Source: Candidatus Zixiibacteriota bacterium (GTDB lineage: Bacteria > Zixibacteria > MSB-5A5 > GN15 > FEB-12). Taken from it: DNA of 64,000 nt. The notes under the pieces are model-generated. The model saw only the letters and a list, made by a program, of their open reading frames with translations, was not told where the DNA came from and searched no databases. Shown piece by piece: positions 6,273 through 35,530 of the stretch. Position 1 is the first letter of the stretch. Each line of letters begins with the position of its first letter. The DNA lies in assembly GCA_017999435.1 (NCBI GenBank), contig JAGNLV010000004.1:434001-498000 (forward strand), in the 5' to 3' direction. A program made the position numbers and the translations under genes.

Positions 6273-7231
6273 TGCACGCGGTAGAAGAGGGCGCGCCCGA
6301 ACTCGTCGAGGACGAGCACGCGGTTATCGATGGTGGTGGTCATCGCGGCCGGCCGAAAGAGCGGCTGGGGAAAGGGCACGGCGGCGACCGCGCCGCCGGC
6401 GGGATCGAAGATGCGGAAGGCGGCCGCGGTGCGGTCGGCCACCCAGATCAGGCTGCGGCTGTCGGCCGTGCCGCCGGCGGCCTCCCAGCCGCGCTCCTCG
6501 CCGGGGCTGCTCCAGCCGAAATACAGGAGGAATTTCCCCTCGGCGGAGAAAAGCTGGGCCGGGTAGTTCTTCTCGTCGGTCACCACGAACCGGCCGTCGG
6601 CCAGCGGCACGAGCGCGCTCGGGACCAGGACTTTCCCCTTGCCCGAACCGTGGGGAACCGCGATCCCCTGATAGCCCCAGCTCTCGTCGAAGCGCAGAAC
6701 CTCCCCCGTCTTCCGGTCGAGCGCCAGCCAGCCGCGCTCGGGGGTGCGGAGGAGCTGGTCCAGCCGGCGGTGCGGTTCGAGAACCGGCGCGAGATCGGCT
6801 ATTGAGTCGAGTTCGGCCGGGTTGTCGCGGATCAGCCGCAGGATGCGCAGATCAGCTGTGCGGGTGAAGACGAGTTCATTTTCGCCGGTGAAAGCCACCG
6901 CGAGCGGGCGGCCCAGGTCGACGGCGCCGCCGGCCGACCAGAGCGGGCGGCCGAAGTAGTCGATGACGGCGATCCGGTTGGCCTGGGGATCGGCCACCGC
7001 GATCTGCTCGCCGCTCGGCGACACGGCGAGCGAGCTGGGGCGTTCGAGGCGAAGGCCGTCGGCCGCAATGACAATCTCGCCGTCGAGCGTCTGGGCGGAG
7101 ACGGCCGCGGCGAACAGGAACACGGCGCTAAGGGCGGCCGCACCAATCGCCGGCCCTCGCCGACACCGGGCGCGCGGCGATGAACTGCCGGCGAGCCCCT
7201 GTGCTTCCGTGTCGATTCGTTTCCGCTCCAT
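6269..7231 (-). CDS. Secreted NHL-repeat beta-propeller protein (second copy)
   Basis: The 320-residue product has an N-terminal signal or anchor (hydrophobic core IGAAALSAVFLFAAAVSAQ) and propeller blades such as RPSSLAVSPSGEQIAVADPQANRIAVIDYFGRPLW and SRSLIWVADRTAAAFRIFD. The fold class matches the NHL protein that ends the operon, but the two are only distantly alike, so the operon carries two different propellers. The ATG at 7231 is chosen because it directly precedes the hydrophobic signal. The gene sits between the giant cytochrome and the hexaheme cytochrome, which supports a role in organising cytochromes at the envelope. Confidence 0.82.
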   Translation of the reverse strand: MERKRIDTEAQGLAGSSSPRARCRRGPAIGAAALSAVFLFAAAVSAQTLDGEIVIAADGLRLERPSSLAVSPSGEQIAVADPQANRIAVIDYFGRPLWSAGGAVDLGRPLAVAFTGENELVFTRTADLRILRLIRDNPAELDSIADLAPVLEPHRRLDQLLRTPERGWLALDRKTGEVLRFDESWGYQGIAVPHGSGKGKVLVPSALVPLADGRFVVTDEKNYPAQLFSAEGKFLLYFGWSSPGEERGWEAAGGTADSRSLIWVADRTAAAFRIFDPAGGAVAAVPFPQPLFRPAAMTTTIDNRVLVLDEFGRALFYRVQ

Positions 7232-7251
7232 GGTCGTCACCCCGGCCGCCC

Positions 7252-10200
7252 TCAATGCGAGAGGCTGTGGCAGGTGATACAGAGTTTCCGGTCGCGATCG
7301 CCGAGGAGGATCTTGTCGTACTCCGAGGAGTGCGGCGAATGGCAGCCGACACAATTGAGATCCTGCTTGGTCCGCGGGTCGATGACGCCGGCGCCCATCG
7401 GGTGGTAGTGCGTCTCTTTCGCGTCGGCGTGGCAGGTCATGCACAGCTCCATGATGTCGGGGGTCGAGAGGAGGCGCTTGTAGTCGCCGGCGTGGACCTC
7501 ATGGCAGGTGCGGCAGTCTTCGAAAGCCGCCTGGTGTTTGAACTTCCCGCTGAACTCCGGCGTGTTGTGGCAGGTCAGGCAGACGGCCACGCCCTGCTTT
7601 TTCTGCAGCGCGCCGGTGTAGCCGACGTGTGGACCGTGGCAGCCGGTGCAGCCGTTGTCGTCGCCGACCGGCGCGTGCACGACCGGCCGGTCGAGCGTCC
7701 TGGCAAAATCCTCGTGGCAGGTCAGGCACAGCGTCTTGACCGGCGCGATAAGCCGGGCGGGCTGTTTGCCGACGTGGCAGGAACCGCACTGGCCGGCCGT
7801 GAAGGGGGCGTGCGCTCTGGGCATGAGGAGACCCCCGCCGCCTTTCGGGGCGGCGTGCGCCTCGTGGCAATTCTGACAGTCGGCCGCCGCGACCGCAAAA
7901 CCCGAATGCGCGGCCGTCATCTCCCCCGCCGAGGCGTCGTGACACGAACCGCAGAGGTTCTCTTTCGAAACGGTCAGCAGCGACGCGGTCGCGCCGGCAT
8001 GGGGCTGGTGGCAGGCGGTGCATTCGCCGCTCACCACCGGGGCGTGCGGCTGGCCGTTCTTGATCTGCTGCTCGAGGTCGGCGTGGCAGGCGAGACAGAA
8101 CGTCTCCGCCGGCTTGTTCTTGAGCGCCGTGAAGGCCGAGGCGTGCGGGCGGTGGCAATCGAGGCACTGGCCGTCGGCAAACGGCCGGTGCTGCACCGCG
8201 AGATCCATCTGCGTGCGGACGTCGGCGTGGCAGCCGGTGCAGAGCGCGCCGCCCTCGGCTTTCAGCATCTTGTCGTAGTCGGCGGCGTGGACGCCGTGGC
8301 AGGCGCCGCACTCGCCCGCGGCGAAGGGGGGGTGCTGATGGGCCAGGCCGGCGGATTCGCCGACCTTCTCGTGGCAGGCCGAGCAGACCGAGGCCATGTC
8401 GCCGGACAGCGCCGCTTCCCCGTTCGGCCCCTTCGCGTGGCACAGATCGCAGCTCTTCTCCGCAAACGGGGGATGGAGCCGCGCGCGGACGAGTTTGGGC
8501 TGTTCGGAGATGTGGGGGTTGTGGCAGTCGAGGCAATTGGCGGAGTCGAGCGCGAAACCGTCGTGAGCCGCCTGCAGGCCGGCATCGACCGCATGGCACG
8601 CGGCGCACAGCTCAGGGGCGGGGGCGGTGACGAATCCCGGATTGGCGGAACCGTGCGGCGCATGGCAGGCGTCGCAGTTCCCGGCGGCCACCGGAGCGTG
8701 CACGCCGGGCCGGCGGAATTTCTCCGCGAGGTCGTCATGGCACGTGTAACACAGGTCGGAGCTGAGGCCGGTCAGGCGCGGCAGCTGCGAGACGACGCGG
8801 CCGTCGACCACGGCCCGCTGCATGCGCCCGGTCACGAGGTTCTCCTGCATGGCGCCGTGGGGGTTGTGGCAGCCGCTGCAGTCGCCCGCGCGAGCCGGCG
8901 CGTGGACATACGCGGCGGTTACTTTCAGATCATCGTAGTCGTGGCAGGTCGCGCACACGTCCTTCTCGTGCGCCGCCAGCAGATGGGGAGCATTGGCGCC
9001 GTAGTGCGGGACATGGCAGCTCCGGCAGTCGTCGGCGGCCGGGGGATGCGGCACGGTCATGCCCAGCCGGCCCTGCACGTCGGCGTGGCAGCCCACGCAG
9101 GCGTCCGCCCCCTCGCCCCGCACCAGGTGCGGCGCCGTCGAGTAGTGCGGACTGTGGCAGGCGGCGCAGTCGGAGGTGAGGTAGGGCTGGTGGCCGGAGA
9201 GCGCGCCGAGGGCGGCGTCGTCGACGGCGTGGCAATCGGCGCACAGCTCGGAGGGATCTTTCCGCAGAATCGCGGCGGTCTTGCCCTCGTGGGAGGCGTG
9301 GCACTGCCGGCAGTCGTCCGCGGCGGCGTGGACGGTCGCGGCCGAATCGCGGGCGGCTTCGAAATCGCTGTGACAGGACAGGCAGAGATCGGCCTCGGAG
9401 CGCGCCAGGAGCGCGGCGTTGGCCGAGCCGTGGACCTCGTGGCAGGAGCTGCACTGGCCGAGGACCGCCGGCAGGTGCGGCGTGAGCCCCTTGCCCGTGA
9501 GCACCTCGCTGTGGCATTGGCCGCACAGTTCCTCCTGGGGCGCCGTGAGAAGGCTCCCGAAACGGGAGGAATGCGGGCGGTGGCAGTCGGTGCAGTTGTC
9601 GCCGGTCATGGCGGCGTGCGGGTGGGCGAGGTTCGCTTTCTCGGCCACGTCCGAGTGGCAGGTGACGCATCCGTCGCTGGGCGACACGCCCTCCGCGAAG
9701 GCCACCCGGCCCCGATCGTCGGGGAGGCTGTGGCAGGTCTCGCAGTCGCCCGAGGCGAACGGCTCGTGGGTCCGGTCGGAGAGAAGTCCCTTGCGCCCGG
9801 CGGCGTGGCCCGAGTGGCATTCGGTGCAGGCGAGGCCGGCGACATGGCGGGCGCCGTGGGCCGCCGTCATCCGGCTGTCGGCCGGGGAATGGCACGATCC
9901 GCAGAGGTCGTTGGCCGGAGCGGTCAAGAGACCAGTATGCTCCGAGGCATGGGGCGCGTGGCAGCGGGTGCACTCGAGTTCGTTGAAGGGCGGATGGGGC
10001 ACCGCGGCGTGAAGCGACGAGTCCAGCTCCGCCTTGTGGCACATGAAACAGGCGCTCGGATCATCGAGCCCCTCCGGCGCCGCCCGGAGCAGCCCTTTCT
10101 TGTCGGAAGCGTGCGGATCGTGGCAGTCCCAGCACTTGCCGTCGGAGACCGGGAAATGGACGCTGGCCTTGTCGAATTCGGCTTTCAGATCGGCGTGGCA

Positions 10201-10443
10201 GGAGTAACAGAGATCGTTGGTTGTCGCAGTCAGCACAAGGGTCTGGGCGAAACCGTGGCGTTTGTGGCAGGACTCGCAGTTCTCCTCTTTGGTGGGCTGG
10301 TGGATGAATTTCCGGCTGGTATAGAGCTGCTTCTGTTTCTGGTGGCAGTCGTAGCAGGTCTTGACCGCCGAGGCCGCCGGGGCCAGGACGAGCCCAAGCA
10401 ATAGCGGTACGATCAGGAACGCGGCGCGGGAGAATGTCTTCAT
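7252..10443 (-). CDS. Giant secreted multiheme cytochrome with 42 CXXCH motifs
   Basis: The product has 1063 residues: a signal peptide (MKTFSRAAFLIVPLLLGLVL...ASA) followed by an almost uninterrupted chain of heme sites. By direct count there are 42 CXXCH motifs, about one per 25 residues. They mostly form doubled-CXXCH modules of the pattern LC-x2-CH ... H-P-x(n)-C-x2-CH-x-PH, with extra His residues suited to bis-His ligation. No non-heme domain is visible after the signal. ATG 10443 is preferred to GTG 10449 because GGAG lies 10 bases upstream of it. The architecture suits a periplasm-spanning or extracellular electron wire. The neighbours, a barrel and two smaller cytochromes, support export of electrons to or from the cell surface. 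Confidence 0.95.
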   Translation of the reverse strand: MKTFSRAAFLIVPLLLGLVLAPAASAVKTCYDCHQKQKQLYTSRKFIHQPTKEENCESCHKRHGFAQTLVLTATTNDLCYSCHADLKAEFDKASVHFPVSDGKCWDCHDPHASDKKGLLRAAPEGLDDPSACFMCHKAELDSSLHAAVPHPPFNELECTRCHAPHASEHTGLLTAPANDLCGSCHSPADSRMTAAHGARHVAGLACTECHSGHAAGRKGLLSDRTHEPFASGDCETCHSLPDDRGRVAFAEGVSPSDGCVTCHSDVAEKANLAHPHAAMTGDNCTDCHRPHSSRFGSLLTAPQEELCGQCHSEVLTGKGLTPHLPAVLGQCSSCHEVHGSANAALLARSEADLCLSCHSDFEAARDSAATVHAAADDCRQCHASHEGKTAAILRKDPSELCADCHAVDDAALGALSGHQPYLTSDCAACHSPHYSTAPHLVRGEGADACVGCHADVQGRLGMTVPHPPAADDCRSCHVPHYGANAPHLLAAHEKDVCATCHDYDDLKVTAAYVHAPARAGDCSGCHNPHGAMQENLVTGRMQRAVVDGRVVSQLPRLTGLSSDLCYTCHDDLAEKFRRPGVHAPVAAGNCDACHAPHGSANPGFVTAPAPELCAACHAVDAGLQAAHDGFALDSANCLDCHNPHISEQPKLVRARLHPPFAEKSCDLCHAKGPNGEAALSGDMASVCSACHEKVGESAGLAHQHPPFAAGECGACHGVHAADYDKMLKAEGGALCTGCHADVRTQMDLAVQHRPFADGQCLDCHRPHASAFTALKNKPAETFCLACHADLEQQIKNGQPHAPVVSGECTACHQPHAGATASLLTVSKENLCGSCHDASAGEMTAAHSGFAVAAADCQNCHEAHAAPKGGGGLLMPRAHAPFTAGQCGSCHVGKQPARLIAPVKTLCLTCHEDFARTLDRPVVHAPVGDDNGCTGCHGPHVGYTGALQKKQGVAVCLTCHNTPEFSGKFKHQAAFEDCRTCHEVHAGDYKRLLSTPDIMELCMTCHADAKETHYHPMGAGVIDPRTKQDLNCVGCHSPHSSEYDKILLGDRDRKLCITCHSLSH

Positions 10444-10460
10444 TGCCACGTGACTCCGCC

Positions 10461-12003: not shown

Positions 12004-12285
12004 TTATGCTTTTTTGGGCCGCAGCAGGCGCATGGCTGCCAGGCCGGCGCCCAGCAGGATGAGCGTTCCCGGCTCGGGGACCTGCGGCGGAGGTTCATCG
12101 CTGTAGACCTTGGCGTCTCCATGCACGTCGGGCGATTCGACGGCGCCGACCGACTCCTCGTTGTCGCTCTGAGGAATCCAGACGCCGAAGACATCGTCAA
12201 AAGCCACCGTGAGCACGATGACGAATATGATAACGGCGATGACCCATTTCATTGGATTGCTGTGCGTGTCGTGAGAAACTTTCAT
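12004..12285 (-). CDS. Small PEP-CTERM protein
   Basis: The 93-residue product has an N-terminal hydrophobic segment (WVIAVIIFVIVLTVAF), an acidic middle and the tripartite PEP-CTERM tail: VPEPGTL, a hydrophobic helix (ILLGAGLAAMRLL) and the basic end RPKKA. Such tails are recognised by exosortase, which removes the tail and hands the protein on for surface or extracellular-matrix attachment. No exosortase gene is in the window. AAGGA lies 7 bases upstream of ATG 12285. A sigma54-type promoter precedes it and a hairpin terminator follows, so it is transcribed alone. Confidence 0.85.
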   Translation of the reverse strand: MKVSHDTHSNPMKWVIAVIIFVIVLTVAFDDVFGVWIPQSDNEESVGAVESPDVHGDAKVYSDEPPPQVPEPGTLILLGAGLAAMRLLRPKKA

Positions 12286-12554: not shown

Positions 12555-13259
12555 ATGGACACCACCCTGGGCCGCGCGACCGCCCATCTGGCCGAACCGG
12601 ACGACCGGCGAGGCGCCGGCGATCTCATCGCCCTGATTAACCGCAACATCAACCCCCCCGCGCCGGTGACCGCCGACGCCGCCGTCATTCGCGCGATGTA
12701 TGTCGTCTCCGACGAAATCAACAGCTTCGGCGGCTGCTTCCCCTCCGACGAGCACGCGGGACTGTGCCGGCTGCTGGTCGATTCGCCGGTCATGGTCGGA
12801 CACCGCCGGGACCGCCTCCCCATCGCGCGGAATTTCCACGCCGAGGAGGTGGTGCGGGACGGCCGACCGTGGGTCAAGTGCTGGTTCTACTGGCTGCGGG
12901 CGGCCGACGGCGCGGAGACCCTCCGCGAGAACATTGACGGCGGCATCTACCGCGAGTGCTCGATCAGCTTCACCTTCCTCTTCCCCGAATGCTCGATCTG
13001 CGGCAAGGACATCCGCGCCTGCACTCACCAACCCTTTGCCCGGTACGCGGACGGCGACGGTGAAGCGGTCTGCCATTTCCGCTACCGCGGGATCGAGCGG
13101 GTGCTCGAGACCTCGCTTGTGTACCGGGGGGCCCTGCCCGGCACCCGGCTGACCAAGGACCTCCGCGACCGGCATCCCGTGCGAATCCCTGATGAGACGC
13201 TGATCGAGGCGCCGACCGAGCTGCCCGCGGCGGAGCGCTATCTCGTGGCGCCGGCGTAA
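12555..13259 (+). CDS. Putative phage capsid maturation protease (5-prime part)
   Basis: The 234-residue product contains RNFHAEEVVRDGRPWVKCWFYWLR, GIYRECSISFTFLFPE and a CSICGKDIRACTH cysteine cluster. That combination recalls the XkdF-like and prohead-protease-like proteins that precede capsid genes in tailed phages; the family assignment is from memory of this pattern, not a search. GGAGGAG lies 8 bases before ATG 12555. The frame ends at TAA 13257-13259 but then stays open to 14054 in the same frame, so this may be the front part of a longer gene. It opens the plus-strand capsid cassette. Confidence 0.6.
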   Translation: MDTTLGRATAHLAEPDDRRGAGDLIALINRNINPPAPVTADAAVIRAMYVVSDEINSFGGCFPSDEHAGLCRLLVDSPVMVGHRRDRLPIARNFHAEEVVRDGRPWVKCWFYWLRAADGAETLRENIDGGIYRECSISFTFLFPECSICGKDIRACTHQPFARYADGDGEAVCHFRYRGIERVLETSLVYRGALPGTRLTKDLRDRHPVRIPDETLIEAPTELPAAERYLVAPA

Positions 13260-13301
13260 GAGGGGATTCCGGTCGCCGCGGCGTGCAGCGGGCCGGGCGA
13301 G

Positions 13302-14054
13302 TTGCGGCTGCGCCGCCTGGACAATCTCGACCTCCCTCCCGCCCTCGCCGGCCGCTGGGCCGCCGACCGCCTGCCGCCGTTCGATGAACTCGGCGGCTAC
13401 CTGATCGGACGGCAGGGGAAGACGCGCTGCGCGCTTGCGGAGACGGAGTGCTTCCTGCGCGGCGAGCCCTCGCCCGTGACCCGTCTCGAGCTTCGGCTCC
13501 TCCCCGGACCGGACACGCCGCCCCTGAGAGCCGCCGGTTCCGGGCGGTTCACAGTCGGTCTGCACCGAAGCGAGATCGGCACGCTGCCGCAGATCGATCG
13601 CCTGGCGGCGCGTCTGGCCACGCGCGCCGGTGTCCGCATCTGGCCGACCACTCTCTCGCTGCGCGAACACGCCGGCTACCGCTACCGGCCGCTTCTTGAC
13701 CGAACCGCCCCGGGGGGCGGCTACACCCTGCGGCAACCCGACGCAACCGGCACAGCGCACCTGGTGTTCGCCGACCGCGATGCGGTGCATCGCTTTCGTC
13801 TCCGACAGTTCCAGCTTCAGCGGCTGCTCCACGGAGCGAAGTTTCTGGCCGACCGCTGCCCGGCGACTGACGACGGGGCGCCCGGGATCACGACCGCCGA
13901 GGACCACCGGCGCCTGAGCGGACCGCTGCTTGAGTCGGTGCGGGATGCCGACGCCTTCCGCCTCCGCCTGGCGGGCCGTCTGGCGGGCGAGTACGTGTTG
14001 CGGCCGGTGACGATCGACGGGGAGCGGCGGCACCTGTTTTACCGGTGCACGTAG
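13302..14054 (+). CDS. Uncharacterised capsid-cassette ORF, probable continuation of the upstream gene
   Basis: This reading frame is in the same phase as the preceding one and separated from it only by TAA at 13257. Reading through gives ...RYLVAPA-stop-EGIPVAAACSGPGELRLRRLDNL. It has no ATG or GTG near its front; TTG 13302 is the first possible start and its ribosome site (GGGCGAG, immediately adjacent) is poor. The 250 residues from TTG are Arg-, Leu- and Asp-rich without recognisable motifs. The likeliest reading is a nonsense mutation in, or recoding of, one 499-codon gene (12555-14054). An independent gene is the weaker option. Confidence 0.5.
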   Translation: MRLRRLDNLDLPPALAGRWAADRLPPFDELGGYLIGRQGKTRCALAETECFLRGEPSPVTRLELRLLPGPDTPPLRAAGSGRFTVGLHRSEIGTLPQIDRLAARLATRAGVRIWPTTLSLREHAGYRYRPLLDRTAPGGGYTLRQPDATGTAHLVFADRDAVHRFRLRQFQLQRLLHGAKFLADRCPATDDGAPGITTAEDHRRLSGPLLESVRDADAFRLRLAGRLAGEYVLRPVTIDGERRHLFYRCT

Positions 14055-14113
14055 CCGCAAGGAGGCGGCGCACCTGACAAATCTGCGACTCCTGAGAACC
14101 AACGGAGGTGCAT

Positions 14114-14422
14114 ATGCCCAACGCGCATGGCCCCGGGTTCAACCTGCTCGGGCCGGTCATCAACATCGTCACCATCATCATGGGCGTGGTCACCGCCTAT
14201 TTCGTGACGATCCAGTCGCTCAAAATCGACCTGGCGGCCAAAGCTGAACGGGCGGTCGTGGAAACGCTCGACAAACGGCTGACCGCGTTCGAGGTGAGCC
14301 TGACCGAGGGAGCGGTGACGCGCGATCAGTTTTACGAATTCGCCCGGGACACCGAGGCGCGCCTGGCGCGCATCGAGCTGTACCTGGCCCAACAATCGGA
14401 GGACGAGCGTGGAAACAAATGA
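14114..14422 (+). CDS. Small membrane protein, holin-like in layout
   Basis: The 102-residue product has one transmembrane helix near its N terminus (LLGPVINIVTIIMGVVTAYFVTI) followed by a charged helical tail likely to form a coiled coil (KAERAVVETLDKRLTAFEVSL...RLARIELYLAQQ). GGAGG lies 5 bases upstream of ATG 14114. One-helix proteins with a coiled-coil tail occur among phage holins and spanin-like proteins, but nothing here proves lysis function and no endolysin gene is nearby. It overlaps the next gene by 14 bases. Confidence 0.6.
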   Translation: MPNAHGPGFNLLGPVINIVTIIMGVVTAYFVTIQSLKIDLAAKAERAVVETLDKRLTAFEVSLTEGAVTRDQFYEFARDTEARLARIELYLAQQSEDERGNK

Positions 14423-14792
14423 AACCCTGATCGAGCAGGTCGATGACCTCGCGGCCGCCTGGACGCCGGACAATCTGTGCGAGCTCGATTTCGACCGCAT
14501 CCGCGACCTGCTTGGGCGGCACCGCCGGCTGCTGGCGGAACACGAGTCGCTCCGGGAGGATCTCGCCGCCCTGCGGCAGGACTATGTCGCCCGGATCGGG
14601 GGCATGGCGAAAGCGATTGCGGCGGTCACCCGCCGGACCGGCGCGGCGCAGGCGCACGATGCCGCAGCGGCAGTTCTCGAGTATCTTCGGACGCTCGAGA
14701 CGATGACCGCGGCGCAGTTGATCGAGCAGTACCGCCTGGCCGGCGCGCGTTTCCGCGATGCTTTCCCGACCAGTTTCGGCCGCCTGCCGTGA
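14409..14792 (+). CDS. Small helical protein of the capsid cassette
   Basis: The 127-residue product starts at GTG 14409, inside the end of the previous gene. It is almost entirely helical, with a heptad-like stretch DRIRDLLGRHRRLLAEHESLREDLAALRQDYVARI. No family is recognised. A scaffold or structural role would suit its position just before the decoration and capsid genes, but that is only positional inference. Confidence 0.55.
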   Translation: METNETLIEQVDDLAAAWTPDNLCELDFDRIRDLLGRHRRLLAEHESLREDLAALRQDYVARIGGMAKAIAAVTRRTGAAQAHDAAAAVLEYLRTLETMTAAQLIEQYRLAGARFRDAFPTSFGRLP

Positions 14793-14934
14793 GTGAGACG
14801 GCGGCGTGGCGCCGCCGCGCGCCCGGCCGCCGCTCTGTCCCGTGGGACTGACCGTCCCGGCCGCGCGGGAGCACCCGCCTCCCGGCCACCCTGCCACCAA
14901 GACCGATCGTAACCCCCACTCCGTGAGGAGACCT

Positions 14935-15354
14935 ATGACGATTCGACCGCAGAACCTTGAAGCCGTCGCGCCGGTGCTGGCGACTTTCGCAGTCCACCAG
15001 ACCGGCGGCGTCGACGATCTCAAAGACGCCCACCTCGGTGAGCCGGTGATGCTGACCGGCAGCAACGAGGCGGGCCCGATCAGCAACGGCGGCCAGCTGC
15101 TCGGGAAGCTGGTTGCGCTGACACTCGCCGACGGCGACGACGGGAGCCGCCTGGCGACCGTGCAGATCGGCGGCGTCTGCCGCCTGAAGATCTCCGCCAC
15201 TTACCCGGCGGCGGGCAACCGCGTGGTCGGCGGGACCGCCGGCACGGTCAAGCAGGCGCCGGCCGTCTCGGGCGACCCGGCCGGCGGCAACATCGCGCGC
15301 GGCACCGTGCTCGCCGTCAACGGCGCTGTCGACTGCACCTTTCTCTTGAACTGA
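14935..15354 (+). CDS. Putative capsid decoration/head-stabilising protein
   Basis: The 139-residue product is beta-rich and Gly/Ala-rich (GEPVMLTGSNEAGPISNGGQLLGKLVALTLADG, then RGTVLAVNGAVDCTFLLN). The size and the position directly upstream of the major capsid gene match the decoration proteins of HK97-like and lambda-like heads. GGAG lies 4 bases upstream of ATG 14935; the GC-rich stretch before it (14793-14934) contains hairpin potential but no gene. It is separated from the capsid gene by 11 bases, which include its ribosome site, so the two are probably made together. Confidence 0.6.
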   Translation: MTIRPQNLEAVAPVLATFAVHQTGGVDDLKDAHLGEPVMLTGSNEAGPISNGGQLLGKLVALTLADGDDGSRLATVQIGGVCRLKISATYPAAGNRVVGGTAGTVKQAPAVSGDPAGGNIARGTVLAVNGAVDCTFLLN

Positions 15355-15365
15355 AGGAGACCGCT

Positions 15366-16469
15366 ATGACGTTCGAACAGTTTCTTCGCTCGGCGGCGCT
15401 GACCGGCGCGCCGCGGGAATGCGACCGCGAGTGGGCCGGAGGCGCCGTCGACCTGAGCCGGACGGCCGGGATCGAGATCACCCGCGCGCTCTACGGCGAG
15501 GCGGAGGCCCGCGGCCTGAGCCTGTCGGAGTTGCTCGAGCTCGACGACTACGACCCGAGCCCCGCCGGGGCGCCGCTCGACGCATTCGAGCGCCAGCTCG
15601 CGCTGGCCGGGATCCGCTTCGGCGGCAAGACTCCGACCACGGTCGAGCAGTTCTACCAGCAGGCGCCGGCGCTCCTTCCGGAGTTCATGCGCCGGGAGAT
15701 CCGCGCCGGGCAGGCGATGCGCCCCGAACTCCGGCGCCTCATCGCCAACACCGCGATCATCGCCTCCAACACCTACACCCCGTTCTTCATCGACACGACC
15801 GACGCCGCCTGCTTCTCGCTCCGGCCGGTGGCCGAGGGCGCGGAGACGCCGCAGGTGCTGGTCACCGAGCAGAACCACGCCGTCCGCATCGCCGACTACG
15901 GCCTGGCCCTGAAAGCCAGCTACAAGGCGCTCCGCTACCGCACGGCCTCGCAGTTCCGCGTCCTCCTCTGGTACATCGGGTTCCGCCTCCAGACGGACAA
16001 GATCGGGATGCTGGTGGAGACGATTCTCAACGGCGACGGCAACGACAACGCCGCCGCGGTCATCACCTCGGCCGCCAGCGGCGTGCTGGCCTACGACGAC
16101 CTGGTCAACCTCTGGTCCCAGTTCGCGCCGTTCGAGATGAACACGATCATCTGCGGTGTCAACCTGATGAAGGAGATCCTCACCCTCGACGAGTTCAAGG
16201 ACCCGATGGCCGGCTACCGCTTCCAGAACACGGGGGACCTGTTCAGCCCGCTGGGGGCGTCGCTGGTGCGCTGCGACGAACTGGCCGCCGACCTGATTGT
16301 CGGCCTCGACAGCCGCTTCGCGATCGAGGAGGTCGTGACTCAGCCGCTGACGATCGAGTACGACAAGATCATCGAGCAGCGCTTTGAGGAGGCCGTGATC
16401 AGCGAGTCGGTCGCCTATGCGAAGGTGATCCACGGCGCGGCGGTCGTGCTCGATACCGTTCACGCTTAA
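15366..16469 (+). CDS. HK97-fold major capsid protein
   Basis: The 367-residue product has a helical N-terminal arm of about 110 residues and then a body with the hallmarks of HK97-type coat proteins. These are a stretch facing a substrate loop (VTEQNHAVRIADYGLALKASYKALRYR), a long helix (LWYIGFRLQTDKIGMLVETILNGDG) and a C-terminal beta region with DSRFAIEEVVTQPLTIEYDKIIEQRFEEAVISESVAYAKV. The length is usual for the family. GGAG is positioned 8 bases upstream of ATG 15366. It is the clearest structural gene of the cassette. The reading frame is intact, which argues against simple prophage decay. Confidence 0.85.
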   Translation: MTFEQFLRSAALTGAPRECDREWAGGAVDLSRTAGIEITRALYGEAEARGLSLSELLELDDYDPSPAGAPLDAFERQLALAGIRFGGKTPTTVEQFYQQAPALLPEFMRREIRAGQAMRPELRRLIANTAIIASNTYTPFFIDTTDAACFSLRPVAEGAETPQVLVTEQNHAVRIADYGLALKASYKALRYRTASQFRVLLWYIGFRLQTDKIGMLVETILNGDGNDNAAAVITSAASGVLAYDDLVNLWSQFAPFEMNTIICGVNLMKEILTLDEFKDPMAGYRFQNTGDLFSPLGASLVRCDELAADLIVGLDSRFAIEEVVTQPLTIEYDKIIEQRFEEAVISESVAYAKVIHGAAVVLDTVHA

Positions 16470-16499
16470 CCACCGGGGCCGGCGGCGCCGGGCGAAGGG

Positions 16500-16515
16500 G
16501 CGGGCTGCAGCCCGC
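16500..16515. terminator. GC-rich palindrome after the capsid gene
   Basis: A perfect 16-base palindrome (GCGGGCTGCAGCCCGC) lies 30 bases past the capsid stop, in a 137-base gap that is otherwise unusually GC-rich. It may act as a transcription attenuator or mRNA 3-prime stabiliser that keeps capsid expression high. There is no T run, so classic termination is not supported. Confidence 0.3.
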
Positions 16516-16606
16516 GCCGGACGCCCGCACCACCCGCCGGCGCGGCGGACGGCCGGGGCCGGGGCGCACCTCCCCCCCCGGCCGCGCCCCATGGGAAAGG
16601 AGCCAC

Positions 16607-18019
16607 ATGCGCCAGACTATCTGTCCTTCCACCGCCCTCCACCCGCTCGGCGCTCCGCCGGGGCGGAAACTGCTGCGCGTTTCGTCCGGCCCGCACGCCG
16701 GGCGGGAGGCGGTGCTCTTCCAGGCCGCCCCGGGCGAGATCGCCTGCGCCTGGGCCGACCGCCCCTACGCCGGCTGGTCGCCGCCCGCCGCCGTCACCGC
16801 CCAGGCCGAGGACTCTCCGTTCGACGCGGCGATCATGCCGGACGGGACGATTCACCTCGTGTACACCGAGGCAGGCACCGGGTATCTCGCCGCAAGGAAG
16901 CTCACGCTCACCGGCGGAGCGTGGGTCCCCGGTCCCCCGGTCACAGTCGTCGACCGGCCGATCGCCCGCTACCCGAGCCTCGCGATCCTCCCCGACGGCG
17001 CGCTCTGGGTCTGTTGGACGGGGATCGAGAGCGGTACCCACCGGTTGTTTGCGAAGTCCTCGAGCGATGGCGGGACAACCTGGGGCGCCGGTCCGTCTGA
17101 CCCGGGGGAGTCGCTCACGCTGGGAGCATCCTCGGCCTTTGGCCGGCTGGCCGTCGGACCGAGCGACCTGTACGCGGCGTACACCAACGGCGGCATGCAG
17201 CTGTGCGTGCGGTCGCGGCCGCTCGGCGGCGGCGCCTGGGGCACGAGCACCAACCTCGCCGCCGGCGAGAACTTCGACGAGCACTTCGACGTCGCCGCCG
17301 GCGTCGACGGCCGGCTCGGTGTCGTCTGGGACAACGGCGCGCTCCGCTACCGGGAGTTCGACGGCGACCAGTGGGCGCCGACGGTCGTGCTCGACGGCGC
17401 GGGGGGATCGTGGCCGCAACTGGTCTTCATCGATTTCGCTCCGCTGGTGGTGTACCTCTCGGAGAGCGGAGCGGGCCAGGCGATGCCGCTGTATACGACC
17501 CGGCAGGGCGGCGCCTTCGTCGCGCCGGCGGCGCTCGATGGCCGCGCCGCCCCCTTCGCCGCCGTCGCCCTGTACGACACGGTGAGCGCCTCGTGGGCGA
17601 ACCTCACCGCCGAGGCTACCGGGACCGCGCCCGCCGATATCGCCCATCCGGTCTCGGGCGCCCTGCTTGCCCACGCGGGCGACGCCCTCTACCTCGGCAT
17701 GGAGGAGCGCTTCCGCTTCGCGAAAGTGCGGCTGTCCTCCGCCGGGGCGGGAGGCAGCACCGTCTGCAGCTACTGGGACGGTTCCGCGTGGGCGGCCATC
17801 ACGCCCGCCTCCGGCCCGTACAACTTCGACGTACTCGAGCACGACCTGCTCCTGTGGAACGACTACAACACCGTGCCGGTCGACTGGCAGAAGAAGCCGG
17901 TCGCGGGCGCGGTACACTTCTGGGTGAAAATCGAGGCGCTCGCCGATTTTGCAGCCGCCCCGGTGGGCAGCCAGATCACCGCCGTCTCCCGCGTGACTGC
18001 CCTCACGGTGAGGAGGTGA
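16607..18019 (+). CDS. BNR/sialidase-like beta-propeller protein of the capsid cassette
   Basis: The 470-residue product lacks a signal peptide. Its first 300 residues form repeated blades with Asp-box-like turns (SSSDGGTTWGAG) and strands such as SPFDAAIMPDGTIHLVYTEAG and YPSLAILPDGALWVCWTG, as in sialidase or BNR propellers. The remaining part is a separate beta domain (VCSYWDGSAWAAITP, KPVAGAVHFWVKIEA). AAGGAG precedes ATG 16607. Its place after the capsid gene suggests a virion surface or fibre protein that binds a carbohydrate. A catalytic Arg triad cannot be confirmed by eye. Confidence 0.65.
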   Translation: MRQTICPSTALHPLGAPPGRKLLRVSSGPHAGREAVLFQAAPGEIACAWADRPYAGWSPPAAVTAQAEDSPFDAAIMPDGTIHLVYTEAGTGYLAARKLTLTGGAWVPGPPVTVVDRPIARYPSLAILPDGALWVCWTGIESGTHRLFAKSSSDGGTTWGAGPSDPGESLTLGASSAFGRLAVGPSDLYAAYTNGGMQLCVRSRPLGGGAWGTSTNLAAGENFDEHFDVAAGVDGRLGVVWDNGALRYREFDGDQWAPTVVLDGAGGSWPQLVFIDFAPLVVYLSESGAGQAMPLYTTRQGGAFVAPAALDGRAAPFAAVALYDTVSASWANLTAEATGTAPADIAHPVSGALLAHAGDALYLGMEERFRFAKVRLSSAGAGGSTVCSYWDGSAWAAITPASGPYNFDVLEHDLLLWNDYNTVPVDWQKKPVAGAVHFWVKIEALADFAAAPVGSQITAVSRVTALTVRR

Positions 18020-18022
18020 ACA

Positions 18023-18835
18023 GTGTCGTACACCACCGATGAACTGGTGCGCCGCCACCTCGCCGACACCCGGCCGCTGGCCGACCGGGTGACCGACCAG
18101 GCGATCGTCCTGGGAGAAAGCGGCTGGGTTCTTTTTTGGCGCGGACCGATCGAGGCGGGGACGGTCGTCGTGAAAGCCCTCCGCGGCGCGGCGCCGCTCC
18201 GGCGCGCGCTCGCCCTCGCGGGCGGAAGCGCGGCGCTGGGAGTCGCCCCGGTCGTGCCGGGGTCGGTCGTGGCCGCCTCCGACAGCTCGCTCGGGACGAT
18301 TTACGCCGAAAACGTCGATTTTGTCATCGATTATCCCCGCGCCGTTTTCTATGCCAAAGCCGGCGGCGCGCTGGCCGACGACGCGTCGGTAACCGTCTGG
18401 CTGCGCGAGTACACGCTGTGCGCGCCCGGCCTCGACTACGCCCTCGATGCCGAGGCGGGGGCGCTCCGGCGGCTCGCCGGCGGGTCCATCGCCCCCGTCG
18501 AAACCGTCCGCCTCGACTACACGCCGCTCTACGCGGCCGGCGACGACATGCTGATTGCGGCGGCAGTGGCCGAGGCCAACGGCCTGGTGGGTGCGGCGGT
18601 CGACCCGGCCAGGGCGTTCGGCGCCGATCCCGCCCTCGAGGCGGCGGCAACCTGTCATGCCCTCGCCGTCGTCTGCCGCGGATCGGCCGCCCGCGTGCTC
18701 GCCACCCGTCCCGAACAGGAGAGAGCGGCCGCTGCCTGGACCCGGCTCTCGGAACTCTACGCCGACCGCGCCGACCGTCTGCTCGCGGCCTTCCATCCGC
18801 CGGCTGCCGGTCCCGCCGCGCCCTCGGCCGTGTGA
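18023..18835 (+). CDS. Uncharacterised capsid-cassette protein
   Basis: The 270-residue product starts with GTG 18023, served by AGGAGGT that overlaps the end of the previous gene, so the two are coupled. The N-terminal third (MSYTTDELVRRHLADTRPLADRV) is helical, the middle is beta-rich (VDFVIDYPRAVFYAKAGG, VTVWLREYTLC) and the C-terminal third is Ala-rich helix. The start resembles head-tail connector or neck proteins in size and position, but no specific family is recognised. Confidence 0.55.
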   Translation: MSYTTDELVRRHLADTRPLADRVTDQAIVLGESGWVLFWRGPIEAGTVVVKALRGAAPLRRALALAGGSAALGVAPVVPGSVVAASDSSLGTIYAENVDFVIDYPRAVFYAKAGGALADDASVTVWLREYTLCAPGLDYALDAEAGALRRLAGGSIAPVETVRLDYTPLYAAGDDMLIAAAVAEANGLVGAAVDPARAFGADPALEAAATCHALAVVCRGSAARVLATRPEQERAAAAWTRLSELYADRADRLLAAFHPPAAGPAAPSAV

Positions 18836-18846
18836 AAGGAGGAACC

Positions 18847-19221
18847 ATGCTGACTCCGCTTAACGACGTGCTGGCCCGCCGCCTGTGGTTTATCCCCGGA
18901 TTCGTCGTCTGGGGCGTGCCGGGGCTGAGCGAAATCGACTTCGTGGCCGCCGAGCAGATCGGCGGCGCGACCGCGCTCCGCCACGGCGCCGCCGTCCCCG
19001 GCGGCGGACCGCAGACGGTGCTCTACGCCGACCTCGTCGACCACCGGGGGAACGCTCTGCCGGCGGCGCTGGCATCGCCGCGCGTGTGGCTGCGGCCGCA
19101 GGGCGCGACGCCTGCCTTCGTCGTGGGCGCCGAAACGCCCTCGTCCTTCCGGGTCGCGCGCGATCCCGACGGCGCCGGGCCGGTGACCGCCGATCTCTTC
19201 GTCATCGAAATGGGCGACTGA
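18847..19221 (+). CDS. Small uncharacterised capsid-cassette protein
   Basis: The 124-residue product begins at ATG 18847 after AGGAGG. It appears to be a compact beta protein (PQTVLYADLVDHRGNALPAALASPRVWLRP, then VTADLFVIEMGD). No motif is recognised. The one-base gap to the next gene and the shared strand place it firmly in the capsid operon. Confidence 0.55.
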   Translation: MLTPLNDVLARRLWFIPGFVVWGVPGLSEIDFVAAEQIGGATALRHGAAVPGGGPQTVLYADLVDHRGNALPAALASPRVWLRPQGATPAFVVGAETPSSFRVARDPDGAGPVTADLFVIEMGD

Positions 19222-19222
19222 G

Positions 19223-19564
19223 ATGGCTCCGGGCGCCCAGATCCGCGAACGGCTCCTTTGCGAATGGCTCGCGCGCCTCGAATTGCTCATCGCGGGGCAC
19301 TTCGACGCCCTGCTCGGATTCGCCCGGCCGAAAAGCCGGAGCCGCTCCGGCGGCGCGTCCGGCCCGCCGCGCAGCGCCCAAAACGCCAAAGTATCGGAGT
19401 TGATCAAAATGATCCAACTGTATGCCCGGCTGGCCGACAGCCGGCCCGGAACCGACGAGTTCTGGGAGATGATCGAACGAATCCGCCAGGAGAAATTGCC
19501 GCTCCGGCCGACCGGGCAGCTTCCCGCGGCGGAGGCGAGCCCCAAGAAAGGACGCCGGCCATGA
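19223..19564 (+). CDS. Small basic helical protein of the capsid cassette
   Basis: The 113-residue product has helical ends around a basic, low-complexity linker (RPKSRSRSGGASGPPRSAQNAK) and a C-terminal KKGRRP. The charge would suit nucleic-acid contact, possibly a small terminase-like or DNA-binding role, but no helix-turn-helix is evident. Its stop overlaps the next ATG (ATGA), so it is translationally coupled to a secreted protein. Confidence 0.5.
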   Translation: MAPGAQIRERLLCEWLARLELLIAGHFDALLGFARPKSRSRSGGASGPPRSAQNAKVSELIKMIQLYARLADSRPGTDEFWEMIERIRQEKLPLRPTGQLPAAEASPKKGRRP

Positions 19565-20310
19565 CGCGCTCGGCGGCCGTGCTGCTCGCGGCGCTGACGC
19601 CGCTTCTCGCCGAGGCCGCGCGCATCGACACGCTGCGCGGACCGTCGCAGATTGAGGACGCCACCATCTACGGCTACCTTACCTGCGACGGCGAAATCAG
19701 CGGCGAGGACTGCCGGCGCTACAACACGGGCAACTGCCTCTATTTCTCCGTGGGAACCCAAGGCACCGGCAACCATCGCGCGGTGCTGCGCTTTCCCGGA
19801 TGGGACGGCGTCGTGCCGGATTCCTCCGTCCTGGAATTGTTCTGCGAACTGGAGGACGACGGCGCCGACCGGCGGATCTTCCTCTATCCCCTCACCCGCC
19901 GCTTCGTGGAGGGCGTCGAGGGATTCGGCGCGGGCGGCATTCCCGCCGACAGCGGCGTCACCTGGAACCACGCCTGGCTGGCTCACGGCCGGGGCGACTC
20001 GCTCTCCTGGACCTCGCCGGGAGGTGATTTCACCGCAGCCGTGGCGTGCACGCTGATCGCCGCCGACAGCGGCAAATACCAGCGCGTCGCCGGTTTCAAC
20101 CGCATGCTCGCCTACTGGGATTCCACCGGGTCCGATCCCGGCGTCATCCTGATCGGAGAAAACGTCTTCCCCGCCAACACGGCGAAAAAGACCTTCACCT
20201 CGGCCGAAGGCGCCGGCGACCGGGCGCCGCGGCTGTTGTTGTACTATCCCGGCGCTCCGGTCGCCGCCGGACGGCGGCGGCTGCAGTCGACAGCCGCCCC
20301 CGCGCGCTGA
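19561..20310 (+). CDS. Secreted DNRLRE-like protein encoded in the capsid cassette
   Basis: The 249-residue product has a signal peptide (MTRSAAVLLAALTPLLAEAA). The mature part matches the pattern of DNRLRE/CBM96-like domains: DATIYGYL, NTGNCLYFSVGTQGTGNHRAVLRFPGWDG, SSVLELFCELEDD and GVTWNHAWLAHG. Such domains occur in secreted, surface and some virion-associated proteins, where they bind polysaccharide or make fibres. A signal peptide is unexpected for a virion structural protein made in the cytoplasm. The four-base overlap with the preceding gene shows it belongs to this operon. Confidence 0.7.
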   Translation: MTRSAAVLLAALTPLLAEAARIDTLRGPSQIEDATIYGYLTCDGEISGEDCRRYNTGNCLYFSVGTQGTGNHRAVLRFPGWDGVVPDSSVLELFCELEDDGADRRIFLYPLTRRFVEGVEGFGAGGIPADSGVTWNHAWLAHGRGDSLSWTSPGGDFTAAVACTLIAADSGKYQRVAGFNRMLAYWDSTGSDPGVILIGENVFPANTAKKTFTSAEGAGDRAPRLLLYYPGAPVAAGRRRLQSTAAPAR

Positions 20311-20336
20311 TGATCCGACGAGAAAGGAACGTGCCC

Positions 20337-21416
20337 ATGAATTATCGGCTTGCTTTTATACTCGCGCTGCTGCTGCCGGGGATGTCGGCCGCCGCCCGGA
20401 TCGTCCACAACCGCACGACGCTTGCGACCGGTGAGGATTCGCTCGCCGTGGCGTTCCAGGTGCTCGACAGTCTCGGCAACCCGACTGAGGCCGATTCGAT
20501 CTTCATCTCCGTGATCGGTCCGTCGGGCGGCATGACGGCGGTCGACTCAATGACGCCGGCCGACGCGCGGGTCTCGGTGACAGCGCCGGGTGGTCAGCCC
20601 GCCTATGTGTTCCACTGCCAGGTCTCGGCCATCGACGGCGCCGGCGCACCGGGCGTTTACGCGCTGACGGTGATGGCCAAATCGACGGCCCTCGGGCTGG
20701 CGACCCAGACGGCGGCGGCCTTCCAGATCGTCGCCGCGCCGTTGTCCGAACGGCTCGCCCTGCTCGATGATACCGTCCGGGTGAACGGCGGAGTGATCGA
20801 CAGCAACCGCACCGAGCGCGGGATGGCGATTGGCTCGGGCGCCGTGTCGGTCGTGCTCATCGCCTACGACTCGACCCGCACCCAGGTCATCCCCGGCGTC
20901 CGCGTCGTCATCCGCGATCTCGCCCAGACGCTCCTGCACGGCCTCGGGTTCACCGACGTGAGCGGCGCAGCCGCCTTCAATCTCGACGCCGACTCGGTGC
21001 TCGCGGTCGCGGCCGCTCCCGGTTACCTCTTCCCGCCGTTCGACACGCTGGCGATCGTCGGCGCGACCATGGACACGCTGTTCGGGACGGCCTCGTACCC
21101 CGAACCGCCGCCCGCGGGCGGCCTGTGCCGTGTCTGGGGCTGCCTGTACGGCATTGACGGATCGCCGCAGGCCGGGGCGACGATCTCCGCGATGCTCCCC
21201 TCGGGCGTCGCGCGCTTCGGCGGTGCGGTCGTGGCGCCCAGCCCGGTGAGCACCGCCACCGACAGCACCGGCCTCTTTCAACTGGACCTGATTCCGTCGG
21301 AACTGCTGGAGAGCGAGGATCCCCGCTATGACCTGACGATCTTTCGGCCCGACGGCGTCATCCTCCGCCAGCGGATCGCCGTCCCGAATCAGCCGCTCTG
21401 GCAGTTGGAGTGGTAG
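20337..21416 (+). CDS. Secreted beta-sandwich protein with carboxypeptidase-regulatory-like repeats
   Basis: The 359-residue product has a signal peptide (MNYRLAFILALLLPGMSAAA). The first domain is an Ig-like sandwich (LAVAFQVLDSLGNPTEADSIFISVIGPSGG). Two later segments (GVRVVIRDLAQTLLHGLGFTDVSGAAAFNLDAD; CLYGIDGSPQAGATISAMLPSG...TDSTGLFQLDLIP) look like carboxypeptidase regulatory-like folds that often serve as surface adhesive modules. AAGGA lies 9 bases upstream of ATG 20337. It is the last gene of the capsid cassette and ends before a convergent terminator. Confidence 0.65.
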   Translation: MNYRLAFILALLLPGMSAAARIVHNRTTLATGEDSLAVAFQVLDSLGNPTEADSIFISVIGPSGGMTAVDSMTPADARVSVTAPGGQPAYVFHCQVSAIDGAGAPGVYALTVMAKSTALGLATQTAAAFQIVAAPLSERLALLDDTVRVNGGVIDSNRTERGMAIGSGAVSVVLIAYDSTRTQVIPGVRVVIRDLAQTLLHGLGFTDVSGAAAFNLDADSVLAVAAAPGYLFPPFDTLAIVGATMDTLFGTASYPEPPPAGGLCRVWGCLYGIDGSPQAGATISAMLPSGVARFGGAVVAPSPVSTATDSTGLFQLDLIPSELLESEDPRYDLTIFRPDGVILRQRIAVPNQPLWQLEW

Positions 21417-32866: not shown

Positions 32867-34108
32867 ATGTGTGCCAGTCGGAGGAACTCGGGTCAGTTGG
32901 CCGCCGGGGTGCTTGTGCCGCCCCCATCCGCTCTGAGCACCGGCGGTCAAATCGACCGCCAACTGCGCTTGAGCACATCAGACCTCCAGCGGGGCCGCTA
33001 TCGCATACTGCTGTACCGCTTTCTCGCCGATTCGATCCCGGCGGTGGCCGCCTGTGTCGGGACCTGGGTTCGTTTGGCCGCCGCGCCGGGCCGGTTTCTG
33101 GTCGACGGCGATGTCTCGCCTTCTGTCCGCCGCCAAGTGGAAGAGCGGCTGGAGCGCCTGAGCGCGCACGTGTACCGTTCGGTCGGGGGGACGCGGGCGG
33201 GCGGCGCCGATCTCCCGGTCGACATTGCAGCCGGGTTGTTTCGCGACGGTTTCTTCGGCGGCTTCGTGACCGTGGACGCAACCGGGACCGGTGTGGACCG
33301 GTTCATCCCGGTCGATGCCGCACGGGTGAATCTTACGGTGGAGGACGGCCGCCGGCAATTCCGCTATGCCGCCGACCACGGCGACCTCGATCTCGATCGT
33401 CCCGACTTCTACTACATCCCCCTCTCCGGCGGCGTCAACGCCCCGCTGGGGCGCTCGGTTCTGCAGGCAGTGCCGTTTGTCGCCTATATCGAACAGCAGC
33501 TGGTCGATGACATGCGGCGCTCCAGTCACAACGCGGGGTTTCACCGCCTCCATGTGAAGGTGACGCCCCCGGAGCGTCTCGCCGGCGAATCCGACACGGC
33601 GTACGTGCAGCGGATCAACGGTTACTTCGACGAGACGGTCGGGATGATCCGGTCGTGCGCGATCGACGAGAACCCGGTCACCTGGGACAACGTCGCCATC
33701 GACTATATCGGTCCGGACGCCACCCGGAGCGTGACTAACAGTTGGTTTTTCAGCCACCGATCGATGATCGAGGAGATCTGCGCGGGGACCGGCCTCGCGC
33801 CGTTCCTGCTCGGCTATTCCTACGGCGCCACGACTTCGTGGTCGGGGTTCAAGTTCGACCTGGTCATGCGGCAGGTGCGCTCGGTGCAGGCGGAGATGCG
33901 CCGCCTGATCGAGTGGATCGCCGCGATCGACCTCGCCCTGGCCGGCTTCTCCGCGCGCGTGCGCTGGGAATTCGACAACACCTTCGCCTACCAGGCCGGC
34001 GAGCGGGCCGGGGTCGAATCGACCCGGATCAACGATCTCATCCGGCTGTACGAGGTGGGATTGATCGACCGGGCCACGGCCGCGGCGAAAGCCGCCGGGC
34101 TCGTGTGA
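32867..34108 (+). CDS. Phage-type portal protein
   Basis: The 413-residue product fits phage portals of the SPP1/HK97 type: an N-terminal helical stretch (DLQRGRYRILLYRFLADSIPAVAACVGTWVRLAAAPGRFLVDG), a beta core (DRPDFYYIPLSGGVNAPLGRSVLQAVPFVAYIEQQLVDDMRR), the stem-crown motif region (FFSHRSMIEEICAGTGLAPFLLGYSYGATTSWSGFKFDLVMRQ) and an alpha-helical C terminus. Portals form the dodecameric DNA entry ring of the capsid. GGAGGAG lies 6 bases upstream of ATG 32867. It is about 11.5 kb from the capsid gene, on the same strand. Confidence 0.82.
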   Translation: MCASRRNSGQLAAGVLVPPPSALSTGGQIDRQLRLSTSDLQRGRYRILLYRFLADSIPAVAACVGTWVRLAAAPGRFLVDGDVSPSVRRQVEERLERLSAHVYRSVGGTRAGGADLPVDIAAGLFRDGFFGGFVTVDATGTGVDRFIPVDAARVNLTVEDGRRQFRYAADHGDLDLDRPDFYYIPLSGGVNAPLGRSVLQAVPFVAYIEQQLVDDMRRSSHNAGFHRLHVKVTPPERLAGESDTAYVQRINGYFDETVGMIRSCAIDENPVTWDNVAIDYIGPDATRSVTNSWFFSHRSMIEEICAGTGLAPFLLGYSYGATTSWSGFKFDLVMRQVRSVQAEMRRLIEWIAAIDLALAGFSARVRWEFDNTFAYQAGERAGVESTRINDLIRLYEVGLIDRATAAAKAAGLV

Positions 34109-34177
34109 GCCGGCCCGGCCGCGCCGCGCGCCCCGCGGCCGCACCCGGCCGATTTGAGATTACCGGAAGGACGCTCC

Positions 34178-35530
34178 ATGAACGCGCTTGCGACCGACTG
34201 TGAGAGCATCGACTGGCGGCGCGCGCTCGAGGATCCGGCGTACTTCGCGCAGGCCGTGCTCGGCGTGACGCTCCACGCCGGACAGCGGCAGTGGCTGGAG
34301 AACGCGCTGGCCCGGGAGAACGTGCTGGTGACCGGCAACCGGTGGGGAAAGTCATTCGTCTCGGCCGTGAAACTCCTCCGCCACGCCCTGTTCCGGATTC
34401 GCGGCTCGCTGGCGTTTGACGGGTCGGGGCGGTACCGCGCGGTCGCGGCGTCGATCACGCAGGACCAGGCCAACCTCCTGTTCAACCAGGTGGTCCGACT
34501 GGCCCGCCAGTCCCCCGTGCTGCGCCCCCGGATCGCCTCGCTCGTCCGCTCCCCCTACCCCATGCTGACCCTCGGCAACGGCGCGGTAATCGAGGCCCGG
34601 TCCACCCAGAACCGGGGCGAGTACCTGCTCGGGAACGACTACGACCTGTTTGTCTTTGATGAAGTGGCGTTCGAGGCGGACCCTGAGTATGTTGTCGAGG
34701 AGGTACTCCTCATGCGCCTGGCCGACCGGGAGGGGATGCTCGATCTGGTCTCGACGCCCAATGGGAAGAACTGGTTCTACCGGCGGGTGAGGGAGCTGGC
34801 ACAGGGGGCGCGGCCGGGGTATTTCCAGTCCGGCGACAGTCGCGCCAATCCCTACATCTCCCGAGCTTTCCTCGACGAGCGGGTGCGGCATTTCACCGCG
34901 CGGCGGCTCGCGCAGAATATCGAAGGTCAGTTTGTCGACAGCGGCGGCGAGGTGATCCGCGGAAGCGATATCGATGCCGCGCTGGCCGGAATCTCCGGGT
35001 CGGAGGAGGCCGGCGGGGCGGCCTCCGGGGAGATCCGCTATCTCTCCGGGTGGGATCTCGCGCGCAAGCGGACGGCGACGGTCGGGATCACGGTCGCGGC
35101 GGCGGACGGTCCGGCCCGGGTGGTCGCCCTCGAGCGGCTGAAGGAGACGGACTGGGCGACGGTGATCGCGAGAATCAGGGCGCGCCAGGAGCAGTACCCC
35201 GGCCAACTGGTGATCGACGCCACCGGGCTGGGGGATCCGATCGTCGAGGCCCTGCGCGAGTACCGTCCGACCGCGGTGATCTTCACCGGCCCGCGCAAAG
35301 CGGAACTGCTCACCAACGTCGAGCTGTTTCACGCCCGGCGGCGGATCGTGTACGAACGGTGGGAGCTGCCCGACGGTCCGGGGCGGACGTGGTCGCTGGA
35401 GGATGAACTGCGGAGGGCGCGCTGGGACGACAACTGCGAGTGCGACAGCCTCATGGCGCTGGCCCTGGCATTGTGGCCGCTCCGCACGCGCCCGGCCCCG
35501 GTGATCGCCCCGCGCCTCGGGCGGGCGTGA
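34178..35530 (+). CDS. Phage-type terminase large subunit
   Basis: The 450-residue product is a complete TerL. Its N-terminal ATPase has Walker A GNRWGKS (residues 53-59) and Walker B LFVFDE (D161-E162), followed by a coupling segment VSTPNGKNWFYRRV. The C-terminal nuclease has the acidic set D293 (GWDLARKRT), D347 (LVIDATGLGD) and D423 (DDNCECDSLMALALAL). It packages DNA through the portal. GGAAGGA lies 7 bases before ATG 34178. It follows the portal by 69 bases; phages normally have terminase first and portal second, so the order here is inverted. Confidence 0.88.
   Translation: MNALATDCESIDWRRALEDPAYFAQAVLGVTLHAGQRQWLENALARENVLVTGNRWGKSFVSAVKLLRHALFRIRGSLAFDGSGRYRAVAASITQDQANLLFNQVVRLARQSPVLRPRIASLVRSPYPMLTLGNGAVIEARSTQNRGEYLLGNDYDLFVFDEVAFEADPEYVVEEVLLMRLADREGMLDLVSTPNGKNWFYRRVRELAQGARPGYFQSGDSRANPYISRAFLDERVRHFTARRLAQNIEGQFVDSGGEVIRGSDIDAALAGISGSEEAGGAASGEIRYLSGWDLARKRTATVGITVAAADGPARVVALERLKETDWATVIARIRARQEQYPGQLVIDATGLGDPIVEALREYRPTAVIFTGPRKAELLTNVELFHARRRIVYERWELPDGPGRTWSLEDELRRARWDDNCECDSLMALALALWPLRTRPAPVIAPRLGRA

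Follow-up and report, generated by a model that had tools for sequence, protein, structure and literature searches.

What does a bacterial lineage do with the head genes of a phage when no recognisable tail genes accompany them? This question is raised by a 64,000-nucleotide stretch of a Candidatus Zixiibacteriota genome (contig JAGNLV010000004.1, positions 434,001 to 498,000; hereafter the window), in which a plus-strand cassette at 12555-21416, with minus-strand genes on both flanks, encodes a prohead protease, a decoration-like protein, an HK97-type major capsid protein (MCP), a beta-propeller protein and several small proteins. A preceding sequence-only reading had delimited this cassette, and all genes it described are present. 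It suggested a tailless or reduced particle comparable to gene transfer agents (GTAs), capsid-forming satellites or encapsulin-like shells, or else dependence on tail genes elsewhere, and it proposed as checks profile searches for tail families, conservation at the same locus in relatives and dN/dS of the capsid gene. The analysis presented here shows that a portal and terminase pair further along the window belongs to the same ancestral cluster, and that the complete set is probably a vertically inherited, GTA-like viriform, tailless or very short-tailed, which descends from a former tailed phage.

Distribution and inheritance of the element

Occurrence of the element was assessed in 97 Zixibacteria genomes of at least 85% completeness, 78 of them high-quality. 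The MCP was matched in 88 of the 97 (73 of the 78 high-quality ones), and the terminase large subunit (TerL) in 89 of the 97. Both genes are nearly always present in a single copy with open frames, apart from one stop codon in each of three TerL matches. In one genome (G053), the MCP is found in two distant pieces (C1:1725304 and C1:2322220) with overlapping residues. Most of the public genomes whose MCPs are closest bear the title Candidatus Zixiibacteriota; the few titled Thermoplasmata, Calditrichota, Flavobacteriaceae or Ignavibacterium are taken to be mislabelled metagenome-assembled genomes.

Distances among MCPs follow those of rpoB in 36 genomes representing 15 families (Mantel r 0.85; 0 of 5000 permutations, largest permuted value 0.27), and are about 1.4 times as large. 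The two trees have 21 of 33 splits in common (expected 0.23, maximum 3). Congruence with rpoB was also observed for TerL (r 0.75 in 20 genomes), the propeller (0.67) and the head-tail adaptor described below (0.58), with 0 of 5000 permutations each. Pairwise NG86 dN/dS of the MCP ranges from 0.014 to 0.049 in nine of ten pairs, the remaining value of 0.24 coming from a partial sequence; dS is saturated in many pairs, and the pair G103/G104 with dS 0.26 gives 0.021. The proposed dN/dS check thus returned values mostly of 0.01-0.05 for close pairs, indicating purifying selection. In addition, cluster and host agree in G+C content, over a range of 35 to 61% in ten relatives and at 70% in the window. 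Domestication and co-inheritance of the element are well supported.

Outside the phylum, the closest MCPs come from one other group, with 38-41% identity, and from Firmicutes, with 34-38%. No viral contig with an MCP above 38% identity was found in IMG/VR, no MCP match above 36% identity was obtained in the phage collection, and searches of the propeller and the adaptor against phage records gave no useful match.

Gene content and ancestral order

Genes of the element in the window, together with the host gene that marks the breakpoint of its split, are as follows:

12004..12285, minus strand: small PEP-CTERM-like host gene (open reading frame, ORF; breakpoint marker)
12555..13259, plus strand: prohead (maturation) protease domain (phrog_16951, E 4e-12)
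13302..14054, plus strand: protease C-terminal domain, in frame with the protease
14108..14422, plus strand: small conserved membrane protein, one N-terminal transmembrane segment and coiled-coil tail; holin/spanin-like by appearance only
14409..14792, plus strand: small helical protein, conserved within the taxonomic order of the window
14935..15354, plus strand: decoration-like virion protein, ~139 aa (phrog_4588, 1e-5)
15366..16469, plus strand: MCP, HK97 type (phrog_3922, 2e-62; Pfam Phage_capsid_4, 7e-7, above cut-off)
16607..18019, plus strand: beta-propeller protein of constant length, 470 aa; lectin-like in the AlphaFold model, with a C-terminal beta domain
18023..18835, plus strand: head-tail adaptor, 270 aa, with an inserted Ig-like beta domain (AlphaFold model and fold matches)
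18847..19221, plus strand: conserved protein of constant length, 124 aa, without family match; at a guess a connector or tail-closure component
19223..19564, plus strand: small helical protein with the conserved motif LIKMIE...FW.MI..IR
19561..20310, plus strand: secreted protein with signal peptide, in a slot variable between species
20337..21416, plus strand: secreted Ig/carboxypeptidase-regulatory-like protein, conserved as the final cassette gene in most relatives
32867..34108, plus strand: portal protein (phrog_3753, 3e-13), found in 34 of 41 relatives
34154..35530, plus strand: TerL (phrog_2, 1e-30; Pfam Terminase_6N, 2e-7)

The last two genes, at 32867-35530, had escaped the sequence-only reading, which correctly described the cassette and underestimated its extent. 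They lie 11.4 kb beyond the cassette on the same strand, whereas in most relatives they stand directly upstream of it. The usual order is portal, TerL, the PEP-CTERM-like host gene (on the minus strand, in many relatives), protease, transmembrane protein, helical protein, decoration protein and MCP, followed by the propeller, the 270-aa, 124-aa and ~100-aa proteins, the variable secreted gene or genes and the Ig-like secreted protein. Because the whole order was found again in about 50 genomes assembled independently of one another, the cassette cannot be a product of chance. Within the taxonomic order of the window, the cluster is flanked on both sides by the same host genes.

Spacing between TerL and MCP was scored in the 70 genomes with both genes. 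TerL is located 3.7-9.7 kb upstream of the MCP on the same strand in 48 of them; six have the two genes 15.7 to 91 kb apart on a single contig, in some cases on opposite strands, and 16 have them on different contigs. The intact cluster, from portal to last gene, spans 12-15 kb. The window departs from the usual order: its capsid half, headed by the PEP-CTERM-like gene, is upstream of the portal and TerL, and behind TerL stands, inverted, a host nuclease-like gene that in other genomes lies in front of the cluster. This arrangement suggests that two adjacent inversions took place and that a breakpoint fell between TerL and the PEP-CTERM-like gene.

ATPase and nuclease residues of the terminase are conserved, as are residues of the protease. 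The protease start at 12555 is preceded by a GGAGGA site, and H98 and S151 (numbered from 12510), as well as the C161/C164/C171/H173 cluster, are invariant in 37 sequences. An in-frame TAA at 13257-13259 splits the protease of the window from its C-terminal domain, while most relatives have a single ORF of ~445-625 aa; the C-terminal domain perhaps acts as a scaffold. In 59 TerL sequences, the Walker A motif TGNRWGKS, the DE and STP motifs and the nuclease aspartates are conserved in at least 97%. For the decoration protein, an ORF start at 14806 is too long, the proteins of relatives having 139-140 aa.

The secreted genes show only weak matches to Ig and CarboxypepD_reg families. The slot between the ~100-aa gene and the Ig-like gene is occupied in each species by different signal-peptide proteins of 250 to 845 aa (e.g. 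L032:3523-4815), and the genes on either side of it are conserved across relatives. In several relatives, the Ig-like gene is followed by a conserved membrane protein of ~110 aa, holin-like by appearance (L032:6363-6701, L042:7269-7595); in the window, no such gene was found downstream of 21416. Ahead of the cassette, the minus strand at 5301-10449 encodes large proteins with many CXXCH motifs, multihaem cytochromes, among them one of 1065 aa at 7252-10449.

Connector, propeller and the search for a tail

Among the small genes of the cassette, the earlier account has to be corrected for the gene at 18023-18835. The AlphaFold model of its 270-aa product (pLDDT 87.6) matches the T4 portal-neck chain gp13 (Z 9.4, 104 residues, 3.4 Å) and neck chains of RcGTA (Z 7.1 and 6.8), and its helical part also matches phicrAss001 portal-assembly and P1 connector chains, while the insert matches Ig domains of neck and tube proteins. 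Because the structural matches are dominated by phage neck proteins, although with moderate Z scores, the protein is assigned on its modelled fold as a head-tail adaptor, and a connector is accordingly present in the cassette. A short PHROG match of the adaptor family to a "major tail protein with Ig-like domain" (phrog_807) covers ~36 residues of the inserted domain; an identity as tail protein was rejected, the fold settling the assignment.

The propeller, modelled with pLDDT 93.8, matches Photorhabdus PLL lectins (Z 27). As modelled, it is lectin-like, which fits a glycan-binding role, and it may be a receptor-binding protein or a nozzle. One BFVD match is annotated as a P22 gp10-like nozzle, but generic propeller and lectin matches dominate, and a specific relationship to gp10 is not claimed.

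Tape measure, tube, sheath or baseplate genes were not recognised in the cluster of any relative, and none of the cassette genes in the window was found to encode a tape measure, tube, baseplate, integrase or replication protein, in accordance with the sequence-only reading. The profile searches it had proposed were made for the propeller, adaptor and 124-aa families against PHROG, together with PDB sequence searches, and disclosed no tape measure. On these searches of the three families, tail genes hidden among the small unknowns were dismissed. Furthermore, the tape-measure (PF10145) and sheath (PF04984) families are each present in only four of 57 near-complete genomes, and both are absent from the genome of the window (G000).

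A proposed GTA-like particle and its alternatives

The history that best accommodates these data is that a tailed phage became a fixed part of the chromosome no later than in the common ancestor shared by the sampled Zixibacteria, and that it has been inherited since. The MCP and decoration protein would assemble a prohead on the portal, the protease would mature it, TerL would load the head with DNA, and the adaptor would close the portal. The particle would be tailless or have a very short tail, and the lectin-like propeller would act in adhesion or as a nozzle. Packaged DNA should be mostly that of the host because replication and integration functions are absent and the genes are often scattered. 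From the gene set we infer that particles form, what they package, that they are released and deliver their content, and that they lack a real tail. Vertical inheritance as a single copy throughout the phylum, purifying selection and the lack of a recognised tail set support the earlier suggestion of a GTA-like reduced particle, and neither of the two findings named with it as counter-evidence was encountered.

According to Kogay et al. 2022 (PMC9662315), GTAs have proteins derived from Caudoviricetes, package mostly random host DNA and are fully endogenised, often in multiple loci; their own genome cannot be fully packaged, their inheritance is mostly vertical with host co-diversification, and they deliver DNA to other cells. 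Caudoviricete-derived proteins are indicated here by the MCP, portal, TerL, protease and decoration matches and by the adaptor fold. Full endogenisation is seen in the presence of the MCP in 88 of the 97 genomes and multiple loci in the six genomes with modules apart on one contig, and vertical inheritance in the agreement of MCP, TerL, propeller and adaptor with rpoB. Regarding packaging of its own genome, split loci are not packageable as one unit, while the intact cluster measures only 12-15 kb. Judged from sequence, the element shares three of these six features, and we classify it as GTA-like and not as a proven GTA.

Several observations weigh against this interpretation. Neither particles nor packaged DNA nor transfer have so far been seen, and release is left unexplained because the searches identified no lysis enzyme. 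By size alone, the intact cluster is small enough for possible self-packaging, and a divergent, conserved tail at another locus would have escaped the searches. One genome of 98% completeness (G017) has no MCP, TerL or portal, and a complete one (G048) yields no TerL match; because a few lineages have lost all or parts of it, the element is not essential. Both cases, together with the divided MCP of G053, are possible lineage losses.

The same genes could be read as a phage head domesticated for another purpose, such as storing DNA or protein in a compartment, or acting against phages as a decoy or an interference device. Tail and lysis genes were not recognised, signal-peptide proteins, unusual among virion genes, are encoded in the cassette, and vertical inheritance shows only that the host benefits. 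We consider this purpose unlikely nevertheless, as the capsid has been retained together with the portal, the adaptor and a terminase whose ATPase and nuclease residues are conserved, and the lectin-like propeller suggests binding to a surface. An encapsulin-like shell, one option of the sequence-only reading, is contradicted by the portal, the terminase with intact residues, the prohead protease and the adaptor, all conserved with the MCP, and was ruled out.

It is somewhat less probable still that the heads are completed by tails from elsewhere, encoded by a divergent locus or by resident prophages. Capsid-forming phage-inducible islands are reported to use tails of resident prophages, the adaptor carries an inserted neck/tube-like Ig domain, and a Firmicutes prophage with a related MCP (L118) has contractile-tail genes; the rarity of PF10145 and PF04984 in the 57 genomes and their absence from that of the window, however, indicate that the genomes share no tail locus of these kinds. 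It is very improbable that the element is a phage satellite or an ordinary prophage, decaying or not. The genes are phage-derived, and in the genome of the window the cluster is split and the protease ORF broken, but phylum-wide single copy, tree congruence and low dN/dS are incompatible with recent decay in a single strain, a scenario the sequence-only reading had also considered. An intact or recent prophage was rejected, as the cluster has no recognised gene for an integrase or for replication and 11000-37000 showed no att-like repeats. No viral relatives above 38% identity were found.

Comparison with known systems

The tail of RcGTA (Rhodogtaviriformidae) is siphovirus-like and complete, including tape measure and baseplate. 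The GTA-like element of Zixibacteria resembles RcGTA in its phage-derived head, protease, portal, terminase and adaptor, in vertical co-inheritance, in the distribution over several loci in some genomes and in lacking replication genes. It differs in host phylum, in having no recognised equivalent of the long tail and in the lectin-like propeller, for which we know of no RcGTA counterpart. BaGTA and BhGTA (VSH-1) are likewise independently domesticated, endogenised phage-like particle genes, each from its own caudoviricete ancestor (PMC9953437). They reside in other hosts, and their transfer has been shown experimentally, while for the element studied here, as also in comparison with RcGTA, transfer is predicted.

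The uncharacterised Oscillospiraceae prophages with phrog_3922-type capsids have, in addition to MCPs of 33-38% identity, the order of portal and protease in common with the element. L118, the only annotated one, differs in carrying genes for a tail sheath and a baseplate, a possible hint that the ancestor of the capsid lineage had a contractile tail. Capsid-forming phage-inducible chromosomal islands also combine head and packaging genes without tail genes, but they are mobile, integrase-bearing and sporadic, in contrast to the fixed, vertically inherited element of Zixibacteria. Encapsulins share an HK97-fold shell retained by the host, without the portal, terminase, adaptor and prohead protease present here.

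A related element and its significance

A second small phylum (public title "Omnitrophota") has an MCP 38-41% identical to that of the window, present in single copy in 11 of 12 genomes (56-94% identity). Its conserved cluster (L100, L101, L231-L241) includes a decoration protein, a protease, a 263-aa protein and a secreted "SQIED" protein, with an endolysin-like peptidase in two genomes; no tail gene was recognised in it. We tentatively raise the possibility that a tailless or minimal-tail GTA is as old as the sampled Zixibacteria radiation or older, and that a related, separate one exists in the second phylum. If true, the two elements would define a class of GTAs that deliver DNA by head, adaptor and adhesin instead of a long tail.

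The open-access literature searched contained no relevant report of a GTA, capsid or prophage in Zixibacteria, and the GTA families formally classified in 2022-2023 stem from alphaproteobacteria and spirochaetes. A phage-head locus kept in single copy across a whole candidate phylum, with a capsid tree that tracks RNA polymerase, would rank among the broadest known virus domestications, and it would imply near-universal gene transfer, or a related head function, in Zixibacteria.

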